Origin: Candidatus Manganitrophaceae bacterium
GTDB lineage: Bacteria; Nitrospirota; Nitrospiria; SBBL01; Manganitrophaceae
Length of the DNA stretch: 64,000 bases
Direction: 5' to 3'
Assembly: GCA_016200325.1 (NCBI GenBank)
Contig: JACQEZ010000011.1
Coordinates: 62,001 to 126,000 of the forward strand
Positions 1 to 22,552 of the stretch are shown here, one piece after another. Both the position numbers and the translations under genes were made by a program. The notes below the pieces were generated by a model. It saw nothing but the letters and a program-made list of their open reading frames with translations, did not search any database and was not told where the DNA came from. Each line of letters opens with the position of its first letter. Position 1 is the first letter of the stretch.

Positions 1-735
1 CTCTTGTCGAATCCTCAGCTCCTGATCCCCTCCGTAGAGCCGGGCGGAGAGCTCGCGATCCCAAGGCGCGTTCTCCGGCACATCGGTATCCATCAGATAG
101 AGACGCACCCGTCCGACACGGACTTCCCAGACCGCGATGTAGACCGATCGCGGCCCGACCGGAACCTCAACCAATTTCTGGCCGGTCGGGAAGGTCGTCG
201 GCCGGATCGCCACCGCGTTCAGGTCCAGCGGACGGTAGGTTGCCTCCTGCCATCCGTCGGCTTGGATCTTCTGATGGAAATAGCCCTGCGGATAGAGAAA
301 GCCGACCCCGACGAGCGGGATTCCGAGATCCCCCGCCTCCTTGCAATGGTCTCCCGCCAAGAGGCCCAGCCCGCCGGAATAAATTGGAAGCGAGTTATGG
401 AGGCCGAACTCGGCTGAAAAGTAGGCGATCGACGCCCTCGCCAAGTCCGGAAATCGTTGGCCGAACCAGGTCTCCCGCTGGCCGAGATCGCTGTCAAGCG
501 CCTTTAGTACGGCGTCATAACGGCGGAGAAACGTCGGGTCTTCCGCCGCCTCCGCCAGCCGTTCCGAAGACACCCCGGCCAATACCTTTACGGGATTGTG
601 GTTTGTCTGCTTCCACAGGGGGCGATCGATCGCCTCAAAGAGGGCCCTTGCTTCCGGATGCCAGCTCCACCAAAGATTATAGGCCAACTCCTCCAATCGA
701 CTGATCCGCTGCGGAATTTGCAACCCCTGCTCCAT
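1..735 (-). CDS. glgP: Alpha-glucan phosphorylase, N-terminal part (cut by window edge)
   Basis: Reading leftward from the ATG at 735, 245 codons stay open to the window edge, so only the N-terminal third is present. The product would release glucose-1-phosphate from glycogen or maltodextrin in the cytoplasm. Residues 19-33 (YNLWWSWHPEARALF) are typical of the DUF3417-type N-terminal domain of bacterial alpha-glucan phosphorylases. Residues 104-129 carry the AYFSAEFGLH and PIYSGGLGLLAGD motifs that open the phosphorylase fold. The ATG is preceded by an AAGGAA-like ribosome site. The PLP lysine and active site would lie beyond the window. The family assignment is secure; preferred substrate length is not determinable. 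Confidence 0.9.
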   Translation of the reverse strand, partial: MEQGLQIPQRISRLEELAYNLWWSWHPEARALFEAIDRPLWKQTNHNPVKVLAGVSSERLAEAAEDPTFLRRYDAVLKALDSDLGQRETWFGQRFPDLARASIAYFSAEFGLHNSLPIYSGGLGLLAGDHCKEAGDLGIPLVGVGFLYPQGYFHQKIQADGWQEATYRPLDLNAVAIRPTTFPTGQKLVEVPVGPRSVYIAVWEVRVGRVRLYLMDTDVPENAPWDRELSARLYGGDQELRIRQE

Positions 736-970
736 TGAACGCCGTTCCTTTCGTTAAGAGAAACCCGCGCCTGTCCCTGACGGCTCAGGCATTCGAAATC
801 TGAAAAATGCCACCGTTGCCAGCTTAACAAAATCGGGATGAAAGATCAATGAAAGAGCGGAAAATAGAATCGCCGAAGCGCAGGTGAATAAAGACAAAAT
901 TGTCTCCTTTTTTGGAAACTTATTGATCTTGTCTTCCGGCTTCGTGTTGGCTTTTCGGGTCAAATCGGTT

Positions 971-1813
971 ATGATGTCGCCCATGACCGAGCGCCCCCCC
1001 GAGATTCGTCCGATTTTCGTCGTCTCCGATGCGACGGGAGAGACCGCAGAGAAAATCTGTCAAGCGGCCCTCTCTCAATTTGCCGATGAAAAGATCGTAC
1101 TCGCCCGTCGGCATTACATCCGCTCCGAATCCCAAATCGAGGAGGTTCTTCAAGAGGCAAAGGCGCGCAAGGGCCTTATTATCTTTACTTTTGTCTCCGA
1201 GTCCCTTCGTCTCAAGATACGAGAAGGGGCGCTGCAATCGGGGCTGCTGGCCGTCGATCTCCTCGGACCGTTGCTGACCGCCATGAGCCACTTCCTCAAG
1301 AGCCGTCCCCGCTCCGAGCCGGGTCGGCTCCACCGGATCGACACCGACTATTTTAGTCGTGTAGAGGCGGTGCAGTTCACCGTAAAACATGACGACGGTC
1401 AGAACCTTCAAGGGGTCCGCCAGGCCGACATCGTTTTGGTCGGCCCCTCCCGGACCGCCAAGACTCCGTTGTCGATCTACCTCGCGCAGTTCGGATATAA
1501 GGTGGCGAACATCCCGATCATCCTCAACATCCCCCTTCCCAAGGAGATCAAAACCATCGATCCGGTCAAAATTGTCGCGCTGATTATCGATCCGCAGCGA
1601 TTGATGGAAATCCGCGAAGCGCGCCTGACCCGTCTGAACCGCCGCGTCGCAGGATATGCCGACATGGAGGCGATTATCCAGGAGCTGAACTACTGCCGCG
1701 AAATCTATCGCCAGAATCCGCAATGGGGAATTATCGACGTCTCCGGACGCGCCGTTGAAGAGGTGGCGACCGATATCATGGGATGGATCCGTCGGGGCGA
1801 CCCCTTTCAATAA
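971..1813 (+). CDS. ppsR: Pyruvate, phosphate dikinase/PEP synthase regulatory protein (DUF299)
   Basis: This family controls PEP synthase or pyruvate phosphate dikinase by ADP-dependent phosphorylation and Pi-dependent dephosphorylation, and so sets flux at the PEP/pyruvate node. The N-terminal VVSDATGETAE motif and the central P-loop-like VGPSRTAKTPLS motif are diagnostic, and the length of about 276-280 aa is normal. Three candidate ATGs (971, 974, 983) lie together and none has a strong ribosome site; in-frame sequence further upstream looks non-coding. The partner dikinase is not in the window. Function is from family knowledge. Confidence 0.9.
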   Translation: MMSPMTERPPEIRPIFVVSDATGETAEKICQAALSQFADEKIVLARRHYIRSESQIEEVLQEAKARKGLIIFTFVSESLRLKIREGALQSGLLAVDLLGPLLTAMSHFLKSRPRSEPGRLHRIDTDYFSRVEAVQFTVKHDDGQNLQGVRQADIVLVGPSRTAKTPLSIYLAQFGYKVANIPIILNIPLPKEIKTIDPVKIVALIIDPQRLMEIREARLTRLNRRVAGYADMEAIIQELNYCREIYRQNPQWGIIDVSGRAVEEVATDIMGWIRRGDPFQ

Positions 1814-1887
1814 ACCGCTCTGAAAAGGGACGAGAATTAACATGACGCATCGGTATGCTACAATAAGCTAAACAGGGAAAGCACCCA

Positions 1888-2742
1888 ATGGCCGCTCCAT
1901 GGATCGACGAAGCAACTGAGAGCAATTTCGAAGCGCGGGTGATTACCGCATCGAAGACGCAGCCGGTGTTGGTCGATTTCTGGGCCCCTTGGTGCGGTCC
2001 TTGCCGGCTCCTCGGCCCGACGCTGGAGCGGGTGGTCGAGGCCTACGGCGGAAAAGTCCGGCTGATCAAGATCAACACCGATGAAAACCCCACCCTCGCA
2101 TCCCGATATCGAATTCAGGGAATCCCGGCGGTCAAGGCGTTCCTCGACGGTCAGATCGTCGATGAATTCGTCGGCGTCCTCCCCGAGCGCCAGATCCGCG
2201 AGTTCGTCGACAACCTTGTTCCAACCCAAGCCGACCTGTTGGGACAACAAGCGCGCGCGATCGAGGGAACACCGCTGGAGGCACTGAAACTTTACGAAGA
2301 AGGCCTCCGGGGGGAGCCTCAACATCCCCCTTCACTGCTCGGCAAGCTGAGACTGCTGCTGGCGCTCGACCGGGTGGAGGAAGCCCGGGACCTCTTCAAT
2401 CATCTTCCGGCCCCGCTTCAATTCCATGAGGAGACCCGCCGGCTTCAGATCCGACTCGATCTTGCCCTCTCCAAACAGCACGGCCCCTCGCTCGAGGAGC
2501 TGCGCGCCCGGGTGGGGCAGGAGCCGGAGAACCTTCAGGCCGCATTCGATCTGGCTCACCGGCTGGCCGCCGACGGAAACCACGAGGAGGCGCTCGAACG
2601 CTACCTCGCCATCCTCCGGAAAGATCGCCGATTCAAAGACGACGGCGCACGGAAGGCGATGCTCCAGCTCTTCGAAATCGTCGGCCCCCGCTCTCCGCTT
2701 GCCGAGAAATTCCGAGAAAAATTGGCCGAGATTCTTTTCTAA
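1888..2742 (+). CDS. Thioredoxin-TPR protein, CnoX/YbbN-like co-chaperone
   Basis: A protein of 284 aa with an N-terminal thioredoxin fold (about residues 5-110) holding an intact WCGPC redox motif near residues 35-39, followed by a helical TPR-like region rich in paired helices. This is the architecture of CnoX (YbbN), a holdase that protects clients from oxidation and hands them to GroEL/DnaK. Unlike E. coli CnoX, which lacks the full CxxC, both cysteines are present here, so it may act as a reductase as well. No signal peptide is seen, so it is cytoplasmic. The start ATG lies shortly after a purine-rich stretch. Confidence 0.85.
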   Translation: MAAPWIDEATESNFEARVITASKTQPVLVDFWAPWCGPCRLLGPTLERVVEAYGGKVRLIKINTDENPTLASRYRIQGIPAVKAFLDGQIVDEFVGVLPERQIREFVDNLVPTQADLLGQQARAIEGTPLEALKLYEEGLRGEPQHPPSLLGKLRLLLALDRVEEARDLFNHLPAPLQFHEETRRLQIRLDLALSKQHGPSLEELRARVGQEPENLQAAFDLAHRLAADGNHEEALERYLAILRKDRRFKDDGARKAMLQLFEIVGPRSPLAEKFREKLAEILF

Positions 2743-2761
2743 ACCCGCCGGGAACTCTCTT

Positions 2762-3685
2762 TTAAGCCCGCCGGGCTCCCTCCGGCCCCGGCCGGTTGAC
2801 CATCCAGACGCTGACCAAAATCAATCCCATCCCGATGAACTGTTTGATCGAGATCGACTCCGAGAGAAGCAGCACACCCAACAGCAGCGCCGTCACCGGA
2901 ATCAGGTTACTGAAAACGGAGGCCCGGGTCGGTCCCACCGCCTGCAGGCCGATGTTCCAGGCAAAAAAAGCAATCACCGACGCAAAAACGATCAGATATG
3001 CGAGCGCGCCCCAGGCCGAATCGGGGATCGGGTTTTGCTGAGCCGACTCCCATAACGCGAAGGGGAGGACCATCAGGGTGCCGATGGAGAACGTCGCCAT
3101 CGTCAGCGCGAGCGAGGAGTGATTTTTTAAAATCAATCTCGCCAAGAGGGTATACAACACCCAGGAGAGGACGCCGAGACAGACCAGCAGATCCCCCTGC
3201 CAGGAAGCGATTGTCTCCCCGCGGGGAAGACGAGCGACGACCAGGACCACCCCGGTGAAAGAGAGGAGGCATCCGACCGTTCGTCGCCGGGTCAACGGCT
3301 CGCGCGACGGCCCGCGCGACGGCCCGCGAAAGAGGAGGGAGGAGAGGAGAACGGTCAATACCGGCGTCGATCCCATGATGATCCCCGCCTCCGAAGCGGG
3401 AATCGTCCTCAGGCCGTAATAGTTTGAGAGTTGATTTCCGATCATCGATAGAAAGGCGAGAAGAAAAAGGAGAGGGAACTCTTTTCGATCGAACCGCCGG
3501 ACGCGATCGTCGGCCTTCAACCAAAACGGCAGGAGACAGAGGATCGCGCCGCCCCCGCGGAGCAGCGCCAGGCGCAGCGGCGGAAAGTAGGTGACCCCCC
3601 ACTTCTGAGCGATCACCGACCCTCCCCAGAGCAAGGCGGCCAGCATCAGCAAAAGAGCGGCGGTGCGGTGCGAGACCGGTTTCAT
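2762..3685 (-). CDS. EamA/DMT family transporter
   Basis: A 307-aa, strongly hydrophobic protein with about ten membrane segments arranged as two EamA halves. The N-terminal half opens with a first helix (LLLMLAALLWGGSVIAQKWG) typical of the family, and the second ends near ALLLGVLLLSESISIKQFIGM. Members export metabolites or amino acids; the substrate cannot be told from sequence. Its start overlaps the stop of the DUF5069 gene by 4 bp (ATGA), so the two are translationally coupled. A short direct repeat coding GPSRGPSREP near residues 122-131 is an odd local expansion. Confidence 0.88.
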   Translation of the reverse strand: MKPVSHRTAALLLMLAALLWGGSVIAQKWGVTYFPPLRLALLRGGGAILCLLPFWLKADDRVRRFDRKEFPLLFLLAFLSMIGNQLSNYYGLRTIPASEAGIIMGSTPVLTVLLSSLLFRGPSRGPSREPLTRRRTVGCLLSFTGVVLVVARLPRGETIASWQGDLLVCLGVLSWVLYTLLARLILKNHSSLALTMATFSIGTLMVLPFALWESAQQNPIPDSAWGALAYLIVFASVIAFFAWNIGLQAVGPTRASVFSNLIPVTALLLGVLLLSESISIKQFIGMGLILVSVWMVNRPGPEGARRA

Positions 3686-4131
3686 CTCGTTGGGATCCGC
3701 CCCTCATCCCTGTCGATCCGATCCAGAACATTGATTGCGCCGAGATCGACCGGGGCAGCCAGCTCGGGATAGAGCCTCTTTCGATATTCGGCGATCTCCG
3801 GGGTGAGGCGAGCGGCTTCGATCGCCTTGACCCACGCCTCTTTCTCATCGGCGGGATGGAGGGGCGCATGCTGCTCTATCCAAGCGAGGACCGCCCCCTC
3901 ATCCCGTGCGGCCAGAATGGCTCCTCGCAGCTTCTCCCCCTCCAAGCCGGTAAACGAGAGAAACCGGCCGTCGACGGTCTCTCCGGTGTTCTTAAGAAGA
4001 TTGCCGAGATACTCGGCTGGGAGCGCCCCCTTCGCATGGAGCCGCGCTTTGTCGATGAGCCGGGGAAGGAGGAGATAACCGCCGAGCCGCTCGCGGGGAG
4101 ATCGGATCGATGGACGATCGGCCACGCTCAC
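3682..4131 (-). CDS. DUF5069 domain-containing protein
   Basis: A 149-aa soluble protein that fits DUF5069 from its opening pattern (SPRERLGGYLLLPRLIDKAR) and from the AEYRKRLYPELAAPVDLGAI stretch. The molecular function of the family is unknown to me. It sits inside a leftward gene run: the upstream GNAT gene ends at 4128 and overlaps this start by 4 bp, and the downstream transporter overlaps its stop by 4 bp. There is no signal peptide or membrane segment. The small size and tight packing suggest a co-transcribed accessory protein, but this is inference. Confidence 0.8.
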   Translation of the reverse strand: MSVADRPSIRSPRERLGGYLLLPRLIDKARLHAKGALPAEYLGNLLKNTGETVDGRFLSFTGLEGEKLRGAILAARDEGAVLAWIEQHAPLHPADEKEAWVKAIEAARLTPEIAEYRKRLYPELAAPVDLGAINVLDRIDRDEGRIPTR

Positions 4132-4562
4132 TGCTTCTCCTTCTCTTCCTGCCGCCGCACGAAGATCATTGCGGCATAGCCCCGCTCTTCGCTTGTGACA
4201 AAACCGAGCTTCTCATAAAAGGGTCGCTTGTCGCTCGTCAACAGGTGGAAGACCGGCACTTTCTTCAAAGAAGGGTGTGTCAGAACCTTATAGATCAGCG
4301 CGCGGCCGACCCCTTTTCGCTGCACATCGGGATGGACAATCACATCGTAGATCGCGGCGCGGAAGAGGAAGTCGGTCAAAACCCGCGCGAAGGCGACCAG
4401 GCGCGGCCCCTCCCAAAGGGAAAAGACACCACTCGACTGGGCAAGGACCTGCCGGGTCTCCTCCAGCGTCCGATCTTTGGACCAGTTTGCATAGCGGTAG
4501 AGCGCCAAGACCTCTTGCGGATCAATTTCTCGGCTGTCGCTGAATTGGAGCGGCGTTTTCAT
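4128..4562 (-). CDS. GNAT family N-acetyltransferase
   Basis: A 144-aa protein covering one GNAT domain. The acetyl-CoA binding motif A is seen as VIHPDVQRKGVGRALIYKVL, followed by FYEKLGFV, the usual beta6-beta7 end of the fold. GNAT enzymes move an acetyl group from acetyl-CoA to an amine; the acceptor here is unknown. I start it at the ATG at 4562 because homology begins there, while a longer in-frame reading runs into the end of the methyltransferase gene and gives Arg/Ser-rich non-natural sequence. It lies 28 bp after the methyltransferase stop and overlaps DUF5069 by 4 bp. Confidence 0.87.
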   Translation of the reverse strand: MKTPLQFSDSREIDPQEVLALYRYANWSKDRTLEETRQVLAQSSGVFSLWEGPRLVAFARVLTDFLFRAAIYDVIVHPDVQRKGVGRALIYKVLTHPSLKKVPVFHLLTSDKRPFYEKLGFVTSEERGYAAMIFVRRQEEKEKQ

Positions 4563-4590
4563 TACGGCGTGATCTCTTTCATCGGCAGAA

Positions 4591-5448
4591 TTAAACCGGC
4601 TTGCGCGCGACCACGATTCGGATGGCCATCGGTAGAGCGATCTCCTCCCCCTTACGATACTGCTCGACCGCCTCTTTAATCTGACGCTCCGCCTCTCCCC
4701 GATCTTTTTGGGAAAGCTTGGCAAAGAGCGGCTGGAGCGGCGCGGCCATATCCAAAAGGTTCGTCCAATAGGTCTCGGCCGAATTGTAGAGCGAGTCGGC
4801 TTGGAACTCCTCATCGGTCAGCTTCTGCAGCTCGGCTCGCTCCGCCATTCCCGAAAGATCTCCCGGCTTCGCCAGCCGGAAAATCCCCGGCTGGTCGGAA
4901 GAAGGAGCGGGGAGCTCCATAAACCGCCTGAGGACATCCATCGGAAGTCGAATGAACGGATTCCGATCGGGTCCCGACCAGACCGCCGCCGCCAGATAGC
5001 CGCCGGGCTTTAGGACCCGCGCAATCTCGGACACCGCCATCGGAACGTCGGGAAGAAACATCAGACAAAAGCGGCTGATCACCGCATCAAACGATTCATC
5101 CCCTTCCGAAAGACGGGTGACATCGGCGACGCGAAAATCCAAATTGAAAAGTCCCAAGCCGTACGCCTTGCGCTTGGCGCGATCGAGCATCTCCTCCGAG
5201 AGATCGAGGCCGATCACCTCTCCCTGGTTTCCCACCGCATCGGCGGCGACAATCGCCGGGTAGCCGGTTCCGGAGCCGAGGTCCAACACCCGCTGGCCCG
5301 GCCGAATTCGGGCGTCTCCCACCAAACGGTAATTGAGGAAGGAGAGATTTTGATGGAGGAGCGGGTCCCACTTCTCCCACGCCGGGGCGACCCGGCTCCA
5401 GTCTTGCCGTTGTTGATTAATGATCTCTTCGGGACTCATTTGCGCCAT
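4591..5448 (-). CDS. Class I SAM-dependent methyltransferase
   Basis: A 285-aa protein with the Rossmann-type methyltransferase core in its first two thirds. Motif I (VLDLGSGTGYPAIVAAD) binds the SAM methionine end, the acidic strand end follows at GLDLSEEM, and the post-II motif is DAVISRFCLMFLPDVP. The order matches the Methyltransf_11/25 group acting on small molecules such as quinones or lipids. No membrane anchor is seen. It is the first gene of the leftward four-gene run ending with the DMT transporter. Substrate is unknown. Confidence 0.88.
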   Translation of the reverse strand: MAQMSPEEIINQQRQDWSRVAPAWEKWDPLLHQNLSFLNYRLVGDARIRPGQRVLDLGSGTGYPAIVAADAVGNQGEVIGLDLSEEMLDRAKRKAYGLGLFNLDFRVADVTRLSEGDESFDAVISRFCLMFLPDVPMAVSEIARVLKPGGYLAAAVWSGPDRNPFIRLPMDVLRRFMELPAPSSDQPGIFRLAKPGDLSGMAERAELQKLTDEEFQADSLYNSAETYWTNLLDMAAPLQPLFAKLSQKDRGEAERQIKEAVEQYRKGEEIALPMAIRIVVARKPV

Positions 5449-20843: not shown

Positions 20844-21830
20844 ATGCGAGTCCCTTCCGATCTGACCAAACATGAACTGATTACCATCCTAGAGCTGATC
20901 CATGCCTCGCTGAACATCAGCGAGGAAGAAACCTTCAAAACCCTCCTCTCCCGTGTCGAAACTTTAATCCCTTGTGCTCACACCATCATCGTTCTTGGCA
21001 GGATAGACGCATACACCCGCTTTCAGGGCTTTCTGAAGATGGTGAATCTCAGCTATCCGCTCGACTGGGTCGACCTCTATATGAGAGAAGATTACGCGTC
21101 GGTCGACCCGATTCTTCGATCCCATTTCGGCCGATTCTCAACCCAGCTTTGGTCGGAAACCTATCAGCAGGCCGTTTCTCCCGGCGAGCAGAAGTTTATC
21201 AGAAGCGCCGAGGCATTCGGGTTATCGGATGGAATCACCCTCGGGGTCGCCTCCCAACGTCAGGGGGTCGGAAGTGTTTTCTCATTCGCGGGTCGATCGA
21301 TATCGGATCACGCCCGCCATGCAACGGTTCTCGAATATATCCTTCCCCACCTCCATGTGGCACTCATGCAAACCCTTTCCCCTTCCCCCACCCCCGATTC
21401 CAACCTCTCACACCGTGAGCGGGAGGTCCTCGATTGGATGAAGGAAGGGAAGACCAGCTGGGAGATCTCCCAGATCCTTCACATCAGCGAACGGACAGTG
21501 AATTTTCATGTCCAGAATATTTTGGCAAAACTGCAGGGGGGGAAGGCATTTTCCCTGTCCGATCGGTGTCGAGAGAAATCCCATAAATTGAAGCACGCGC
21601 CAAAAGCGCTTCTCGACTTCGAGGTAGGCATACCGTATTTCATTGACCACCGACCATTGATAAAGTCCTTTGAGCAGGATGCTCAAGTAACGCGAGGACA
21701 ATCCCTTCCCCTTGGAAAAGGGGGTGATGGTCAGCCGGGTGATTTCAACGGTGTCCGCCTCCTTTCGAATCCGATAGCCTGGGGCGACCAGGTCGGAGAA
21801 CTCACTCTCCAGCATAAACGGCTGACTTGA
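20844..21830 (+). CDS. LuxR-family acyl-homoserine-lactone receptor, natural 3' end apparently lost
   Basis: The first 231 residues form a normal LuxR. Trp75, Tyr79, Asp88, Pro89, Trp103 and Gly126 match the signal-binding residues of the family, and residues 187-230 are the GerE helix-turn-helix (LSHREREVLDWMKEGK, ISERTVNFHVQNILAKL). After Gln231 (about 21536) the frame runs on for 97 codons that are the exact antisense of luxI, so this tail is not LuxR sequence; about 20 normal C-terminal residues are missing. The protein would bind an AHL and then DNA. A sigma-70 promoter is present upstream. Whether it still works with the altered tail is unknown. Confidence 0.85.
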   Translation: MRVPSDLTKHELITILELIHASLNISEEETFKTLLSRVETLIPCAHTIIVLGRIDAYTRFQGFLKMVNLSYPLDWVDLYMREDYASVDPILRSHFGRFSTQLWSETYQQAVSPGEQKFIRSAEAFGLSDGITLGVASQRQGVGSVFSFAGRSISDHARHATVLEYILPHLHVALMQTLSPSPTPDSNLSHREREVLDWMKEGKTSWEISQILHISERTVNFHVQNILAKLQGGKAFSLSDRCREKSHKLKHAPKALLDFEVGIPYFIDHRPLIKSFEQDAQVTRGQSLPLGKGGDGQPGDFNGVRLLSNPIAWGDQVGELTLQHKRLT

Positions 21831-22064
21831 GGGAAGCAGGCGGATTAATCCCAGAAGGGCATTCTCTTCCGAGAAGAGTCCGACCGAGGTTGCAAAAGAG
21901 TCATAGCGGTCGATTTCTAGGCCGGTCGGGTTCGGCGGGACCCAACCCAAGATATCGCAATAGACCTGATGTCTCAACCGATATGCCAGTAAAAGCTCCT
22001 CCTCCGACTCGATGGACCGGACCTGACAGCCCTCTTCATAAAGATGAATCGCTTGATCGTTCAT
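21408..22064 (-). CDS. LuxI-family acyl-homoserine-lactone synthase, 3' end fused into luxR antisense
   Basis: A 218-aa reading frame whose first 175 residues fit the LuxI/GNAT acyl-transferase fold. Arg29, Trp41, Asp52, Asp55, Arg75, Glu107 and Arg110 fall at conserved positions (AYRLRHQVYCDILGW, GLEIDRYD, LGLIRLL, EITRLTI). It would join an acyl chain to S-adenosylmethionine to make an AHL signal. From about residue 176 (near 21540) the sequence is antisense to the luxR helix-turn-helix, so the true C-terminus is lost. An AGGAGG site precedes the ATG and a lux box lies 84 bp upstream. A related exosortase-associated acyltransferase is the alternative, less likely beside luxR and a lux box. 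Confidence 0.83.
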   Translation of the reverse strand: MNDQAIHLYEEGCQVRSIESEEELLLAYRLRHQVYCDILGWVPPNPTGLEIDRYDSFATSVGLFSEENALLGLIRLLPSSQPFMLESEFSDLVAPGYRIRKEADTVEITRLTITPFSKGKGLSSRYLSILLKGLYQWSVVNEIRYAYLEVEKRFWRVLQFMGFLSTPIGQGKCLPPLQFCQNILDMKIHCPFADVKDLGDLPAGLPFLHPIEDLPLTV

Positions 22065-22119
22065 GTTTTCCTCCTGTTTTAGGTCGATTAAAATGGTTTA
22101 AGGTATGCATGCGAGAAAA

Positions 22120-22125
22120 TCCTAC
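22120..22125 (-). promoter_or_regulatory. Candidate -10 element of the luxI promoter
   Basis: Read leftward, TAGGAT sits 35 bases from the centre of the lux box, which places the start site near 22113 and the lux box at about -44. This is the usual class II arrangement in which LuxR bound at the box replaces the -35 element. Confidence 0.5.
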
Positions 22126-22147
22126 CTGAAATTTAGGAGTCGCGGTG

Positions 22148-22167
22148 ACCTGTCAGAATTGACAGGT
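22148..22167. promoter_or_regulatory. lux box between luxI and the small GerE regulator
   Basis: ACCTGTCAGAATTGACAGGT is a 20-bp dyad with two perfect 8-bp arms and a 4-bp centre. It has the same length and the same ACCTGT/ACAGGT ends as the classical Vibrio fischeri lux box. Symmetry extends outward with one mismatch per side (22145-22170). It lies upstream of luxI on one side and of the small regulator on the other, with plausible -10 elements at near-equal distance on both sides. Confidence 0.85.
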
Positions 22168-22187
22168 GACTTTTTAGTGGCCCGGCT

Positions 22188-22193
22188 TACAAT
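22188..22193 (+). promoter_or_regulatory. Candidate -10 element of the small regulator promoter
   Basis: TACAAT lies 33 bases to the right of the lux box centre. The start site would be near 22200, putting the lux box at about -42.5, the standard LuxR-activated position. There is no good -35 hexamer, as expected if LuxR supplies that contact. Confidence 0.5.
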
Positions 22194-22324
22194 GGTTACT
22201 AAGTTAAAACGCTAGGCGATCGCATAGAGGGGACCGCCGGGCAGTATCTGACCGTACGCGAGAAGCTTCTCCAACCCAAGGAAGGGAAAGGCTTATGTTG
22301 CTCTTGAACCATGAAGGAGGGAAG

Positions 22325-22552
22325 ATGCTTAAAAAGAGACCGCTGACGAAGCGGGAGACGGAGATCGTTCGCCTTGTCTCAGGCGGCCTGAGAAACAAGG
22401 ACGTTGCGAAGACGCTTGGAATCAGCGTCAAAACGGTTGAGACACACCGTGTCAACATTATGAACAAGCTCGCACTCGACAATCTGGCACAGCTGATTCG
22501 ATATGCGGTTCAGAATGGCCTGATCCACATCGAAGTTGAGAAGGCCCAGTAA
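22325..22552 (+). CDS. Single-domain GerE/NarL-type helix-turn-helix regulator
   Basis: A 75-aa protein that is just one GerE helix-turn-helix domain (LTKRETEIVRLVSGGLRNKDVAKTLGISVKTVETHRVNI), with no receiver or signal-binding domain. The ATG at 22325 follows a GAAGGAGGG ribosome site and is preferred over an earlier one at 22295. Stand-alone GerE proteins act as small transcription regulators, some modulating a LuxR partner. Its position across the lux box from luxI suggests it belongs to the quorum-sensing circuit. Targets are unknown. Confidence 0.85.
   Translation: MLKKRPLTKRETEIVRLVSGGLRNKDVAKTLGISVKTVETHRVNIMNKLALDNLAQLIRYAVQNGLIHIEVEKAQ

Follow-up and report, generated by a model that had tools for sequence, protein, structure and literature searches.

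A Conserved lux Box, the Predicted Site of LuxR, Very Probably Switches on Both luxI and a Small GerE Regulator in Manganese-Oxidising Nitrospirota

Introduction

In the luxR-luxI region of Vibrio fischeri, the 20-bp lux box has the ends ACCTGT/ACAGGT and is centred near -42.5, and the gene divergent from luxI is luxR itself. In Nitrospira from activated sludge, nspI and a divergent gene have a single lux box in common, ACCTGGCGGTTCCGCCAGGT, through which both are activated by NspR1 and C8-HSL (PMC8553950). The box lies 81 bp upstream of nspI, which is activated 14-fold, and 125 bp upstream of the divergent non-luxI gene, which is activated 196.6-fold and has been reported to encode a GGDEF/EAL protein (PMC8553950). 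The gel shift of this lux box required RNA polymerase (PMC8553950).

Here we consider a lux box in a 64-kb stretch of a Candidatus Manganitrophus genome, hereafter the window. A sequence-only reading had proposed that the box forms a symmetric, bidirectional LuxR-controlled promoter for luxI and a small GerE regulator (gerE). Our analysis supports that the box is common to both genes; the proposed symmetry, and the functioning of the circuit in the window genome, are unsupported. We find it rather likely, on the sequence evidence below, that LuxR with its AHL acts through this dyad, as the one high-affinity operator at the Manganitrophus locus, to activate both gerE and luxI, and that in the window genome the switch has recently been disabled by a 151-bp deletion, if the assembly is right.

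Results

The lux Box

The dyad ACCTGTCAGAATTGACAGGT occupies positions 22148-22167, with no strand assigned, and is the predicted LuxR/AHL operator by virtue of its uniqueness, its place in a conserved block and its co-occurrence with luxI. On re-check, the position and the perfect 8-bp arms given by the sequence-only reading were exact, with GAAT as the centre, and the classical lux-box ends noted there are confirmed by 12 of 12 end bases that agree with ACCTGT/ACAGGT. When up to three mismatches are allowed, ACCTGTCAGAATTGACAGGT itself is the sole match in the window, and 0 of 100 dinucleotide shuffles of the window yielded a match by the same rule. The distance from the box to luxI is 83 bp.

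The same dyad could be taken for an intrinsic terminator that halts rightward read-through, antisense to luxI, ahead of gerE. A terminator scan gives a stem followed by GACTTTTTAG, the RNA hairpin has an energy of -12 kcal/mol in the window and -9.8 kcal/mol in one congener (G005), where a C-to-T change still leaves a G-U pair on this strand, and the T5 run is kept in six of six species. We nevertheless regard this explanation as very improbable, since the T run begins three bases past the stem, since the Nitrospira boxes have no T run and yet one of them is proven to bind LuxR, and since the exact lux-box ends and the co-occurrence with luxI would be left unexplained.

Conservation of the Box

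Five congener genomes (G001-G005) were searched, which together with the window genome makes six Candidatus Manganitrophus genomes. Perfect ACCTGT-N8-ACAGGT sites occur exactly once per genome in all six, always upstream of gerE, with luxI diverging on the other side in every genome that has it assembled; in G003 the contig stops just past the lux box. In a box-anchored alignment, the block ACCTGT(C/T)AGAA(C/T)TGACAGGT-GA(C/T)TTTTTAG-N10-TA(C/G)AATG is kept in six of six species, while the flanks have diverged.

A genome-wide search for further copies of the dyad, which the sequence-only reading had suggested as a check, gave no second perfect box in the window genome, and near matches only inside open reading frames. 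Two copies with one mismatch on contig C8 and ACCTGGCGGGTCTGCCAGGT at C11:623890 were considered as extra LuxR targets and rejected, because all lie within open reading frames and because one-mismatch sites are about as frequent in the Manganitrophus genomes as matches to a reversed-pattern control.

The survey was extended to 58 Nitrospiria genomes with a pattern that covers the Manganitrophus and the Nitrospira boxes. The box was found in 22 of the 24 genomes with a luxI locus and in none of the 34 without luxI (Fisher p = 5e-14, or 1e-11 if G032, where the box and the luxI locus are on different contigs, is counted against; the genomes are related, so that p overstates their independence). 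Within g9, the Nitrospira genus with the best sampling, two genomes are without luxI, and the box is missing from both. Fourteen Nitrospira loci have the same type of dyad ahead of luxI, and one of these (L013) carries exactly the published box. Because the box is conserved in six species, co-occurs with luxI throughout the class and has a proven bidirectional counterpart in Nitrospira, the view that the dyad would act like a genuine LuxR-type site common to luxI and gerE is supported.

That the dyad instead serves the small GerE protein for autoregulation, and is not a site for LuxR, is suggested by the dyad-binding habit of GerE-family proteins and by the fact that the box adjoins gerE. There is little to recommend this idea when the box is kept upstream of luxI in Nitrospira and in another relative (G014) with no small GerE gene beside it, and when the many small GerE paralogues of Manganitrophus lack such boxes.

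Two further loci were seen in the course of the survey; region L090 proved unrelated and was set aside. In a class-level relative (L008 in G021), two luxR genes flank luxI, and a span of 1.1 kb contains three perfect boxes (314, 1326 and 1410) with inner bases that differ from one to the next; possibly, this layout reflects two receptors with differing site preferences. At L093 (G014:C64, ~1-4600), a second copy of the lux box stands ahead of a luxI fragment consisting of the first 54 residues only, near IS21-like transposase genes, and this looks like another luxI copy in decay.

Promoter Geometry on the Two Sides

On the gerE side, a promoter core on the plus strand (22166-22193) is identified by a promoter scan and by six-species conservation. 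It consists of GTGACT (22166-22171), a spacer of 16 nt and TACAAT (22188-22193), the latter just where the sequence-only reading had put it, and the elements GTGA(C/T)T and TA(C/G)AAT recur at fixed spacing in six of six species. The predicted transcript start is near 22200, which puts the lux box at the class II position, with its centre near -42.5.

On the luxI side, the -10 candidate TAGGAT is indeed present on the minus strand, but its real place is 22124-22119, one base off the proposed 22125-22120. It is a weak candidate (22119-22124), from which the congeners differ by having TAGTCT or TAGCCT as the counterpart. In the congener alignments, the distance from the box to the luxI-side hexamer varies from 22 to 27 nt, whereas the corresponding distance on the gerE side is fixed at 20 nt. 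From centre of box to centre of hexamer there are ~33 bases on the gerE side, as had been proposed, but ~36 instead of 35 on the luxI side. The proposal that both starts lie near the class II position, with the box at about -42 to -44, fits the predicted gerE start; on the luxI side the distance comes out a few bases greater.

Of the two candidate promoters, the one on the gerE side is good and conserved, and the one towards luxI is weak and lacks conservation. The idea of a symmetric drive of both genes finds no support, in that the gerE promoter alone is conserved and the luxI -10 hexamer is kept in neither sequence nor spacing. As judged from these alignments, the operator is symmetric and the predicted promoter pair asymmetric, with gerE as the better-kept output.

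The Small GerE Regulator

The gene gerE (22325-22552, plus strand; Shine-Dalgarno sequence AAGGAGG at 22314-22320) encodes an HTH-only GerE-type regulator of 75 aa, with a Pfam GerE match covering 2-57 of 57. The best start is ATG 22325; ATG 22295 (85 aa) is an alternative. The product is a NarL-type GerE domain with neither receiver nor ligand domain, and this domain is 84-92% identical between the window protein and its congeners. The window protein is receptor-less, as the sequence-only reading had it, but its HTH-only form is derived: the congener open reading frames have 137-141 aa, with an extra N-terminal segment of about 65 residues. In the window, the gerE leader is shortened (22201-22324, plus strand): to judge from the alignment and the congener open reading frames, about 250 bp are absent, and the protein is without the N-terminal extension. 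In the congeners (L004-L006, L032), a leader of about 210 nt precedes gerE and the ~65-residue segment is conserved and lysine-rich; both are lost in the window, where only a diverged remnant of leader and extension seems to remain.

In the window genome 18 GerE matches were counted, and several of these are short. Ahead of the window, at a distance of about 2.6 kb from its start, a row of genes (L097; G000:C11:57500-62000, 87-2538, plus strand) encodes, in this order, a histidine kinase, a NarL-type response regulator, an HTH-only GerE protein (79 aa) and a receiver-only protein (144 aa). The short GerE proteins form a multi-copy Manganitrophus family that seems to be associated with two-component systems. 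The quorum-linked copy was probably recruited from this family, because it has short GerE paralogues and because the 79-aa copy stands in a row with a histidine kinase and a response regulator.

Several other affiliations were rejected. The small protein scores 55 bits for PedR against a curated cut-off of 120, its domain is GerE and not an RsaL-type HTH, and the PADLOC matches that would place it in a defence family reach no further than the HTH end of CARF proteins. A relationship with the response regulator found in the Nitrospira slot was also discarded, the identity being only 29% over the HTH and no closer than to any GerE domain.

A functional likeness to RsaL is a separate matter. GerE could be induced together with luxI and then repress luxI and itself, so that it would serve homeostasis and not relay. 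This would match the layout of rsaL-lasI, a gene pair that is driven from a single LasR site and repressed, on either side, by its small regulator (PMC10746200). We judge it unlikely, considering that GerE comes from a different protein family and that the congener alignments show, towards luxI, no evident second conserved dyad that could serve as its operator.

A Probable 151-bp Deletion in luxR and luxI

The luxI open reading frame (21408-22064, minus strand) has 218 codons and starts at ATG 22064 behind the Shine-Dalgarno sequence AGGAGG (22075-22070). Its Pfam Autoind_synth domain scores 50.8 bits against a cut-off of 24, and in a genome-collection search its one match with a name was Candidatus Manganitrophus sp. 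GAC4 (73% identical), which makes the source of the window a relative of the manganese-oxidising Nitrospirota. According to Pfam and the congener alignments, residues 1-176 are AHL synthase and residues 177-218 antisense of luxR; the C-terminal part kept in relatives (PPAG...ILDW and beyond) is lost after residue 176. The luxR open reading frame (20844-21830, plus strand; 328 codons, start ATG 20844) is convergent with luxI. It is intact to about residue 230, ending near 21536, and the remainder is antisense of luxI. The Pfam matches are Autoind_bind and GerE 2-46 of 57, compared with GerE 3-57 of 57 in a congener LuxR. The ligand-binding domain and the recognition helix are kept and helix 4 of the HTH is lost, so that the window LuxR lacks a complete four-helix HTH.

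Both truncations come from one deletion of 151 bp, which the sequence-only reading had missed and which by alignment takes the convergent 3' ends of luxR and luxI, and with them about 67 residues of LuxI. The MAFFT alignment with four congeners places its junction, with no strand assigned, in a G7 tract at 21536-21542. In the congeners luxI and luxR are also convergent, and both are intact. The missing LuxI end was searched for in the rest of the window genome, which is 99% complete, and not found there; nor was a second AHL receptor found in this genome, which has a single Autoind_bind protein. The working LuxR control that the sequence-only reading assumed is for these reasons not borne out in the window genome.

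In the remaining coding parts, pairwise dN/dS is low, about 0.08 for luxI and about 0.11 for luxR, and it is about 0.02 for gerE where dS is not saturated. Long-standing pseudogenisation of luxI and luxR is thereby ruled out, and from this follows that the loss, if real, is recent; the low values fit a recent loss and an artefact alike. An assembly or consensus artefact, with the same bidirectional promoter intact and working, is a serious alternative for the disabled state alone, though a somewhat improbable one. It would agree with the low dN/dS, with the full retention of the lux box and the gerE promoter, and with the fact that the deletion is known from one assembly only, all five congeners with a readable sequence here being without it. 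It is harder to reconcile with a precise loss of 151 bp, which is unlike a homopolymer error, and with a genome in which the missing sequence is nowhere else to be found. The decay also appears to be real and local because the same locus has lost the spacer and the GerE N-terminus as well.

If the assembly is right, activator and synthase in the window genome are probably broken. To judge from the GerE fold, loss of helix 4 would disable DNA binding by LuxR; the truncated LuxI, which keeps the catalytic-region residues, might retain activity.

Discussion

The preferred scheme, a LuxR operator with two outputs, can be summarized as follows. In Manganitrophus, we infer, AHL-bound LuxR binds the lux box and activates the rightward gerE promoter in class II fashion, with the box centre near -42.5. 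LuxR would also activate the leftward luxI promoter, probably more weakly. Direct quorum control would then have two branches, an autoinduction loop and GerE, a second regulator that most likely relays the signal onward. In the window genome, the lux box and the gerE promoter persist and helix 4 of LuxR and the LuxI C-terminus are gone; if the assembly is right, the switch is disabled, and gerE expression would be basal or under some other control.

A more far-reaching scheme is put forward tentatively, and we would sooner doubt it than rely on it. Here, everything that LuxR controls directly in Manganitrophus would come down to a single box and its two outputs. Quorum control further downstream would run wholly through GerE, which lacks both receiver and ligand domain and would stem from a genus-level HTH-only family; in Nitrospira the slot is taken by a histidine kinase. 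The window lineage would subsequently have lost the sensor and kept the relay free of the signal.

The second output was thought to be novel. It is not new in kind: rsaL-lasI has a small divergent regulator under one lux box, and in Nitrospira luxI shares its box with another gene that diverges from it. Because the shared box of Nitrospira is proven and rsaL-lasI is analogous, the Manganitrophus box is a variant of an already known arrangement. What differs is the partner gene, an HTH-only GerE here and a HisKA_3 kinase in Nitrospira.

The analysis now places an AHL circuit with a conserved, predicted bidirectional operator in manganese-oxidising autotrophs, and suggests that signalling genes have repeatedly been placed under the luxI box in Nitrospiria. 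With one box and two genes, the locus is a very small network that can be tested. For such work the congeners hold intact genes; the quorum circuit of the window genome is probably broken.

Comparison with Known Systems

In all eight Nitrospira loci that were tested, the divergent gene encodes a HisKA_3 histidine kinase. At L013/L101 (G053), which has the identical box, and at further Nitrospira loci, this kinase is found where a GGDEF/EAL protein was described (PMC8553950); the published annotation may deserve a re-check. In L088, a NarL-type response regulator comes next after the kinase of the lux-box locus.

The closest likeness is to nspI/nspR1 of Nitrospira, from the same bacterial class, where a single 20-bp dyad likewise separates luxI from the gene that diverges from it. 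The box is 81 bp from nspI there and 83 bp from luxI in the Manganitrophaceae window, and the stronger output in the Nitrospira assay was on the non-luxI side, which is also the side of the better-kept promoter (gerE) in the window. The systems differ in the arms of the box (ACCTGGCG/CGCCAGGT in Nitrospira, ACCTGTCA/TGACAGGT in the window), in the divergent partner, which is a HisKA_3 kinase in the one and the small HTH-only GerE in the other, and in LuxR and LuxI, which are intact in Nitrospira and truncated in the window.

With the Vibrio fischeri region, the window box shares length, ends and, on the gerE side, a predicted centre near -42.5. In contrast to that region, luxR and luxI of the window converge, and the gene that diverges from luxI encodes a second regulator, one without a receptor. 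In this last respect the locus resembles rsaL-lasI of Pseudomonas aeruginosa, where a small regulator is divergent from the AHL synthase gene and one LuxR-type site activates both (PMC10746200). RsaL, however, has no GerE domain and represses lasI from an operator of its own (PMC10746200), whereas the regulator in the window is a GerE domain.
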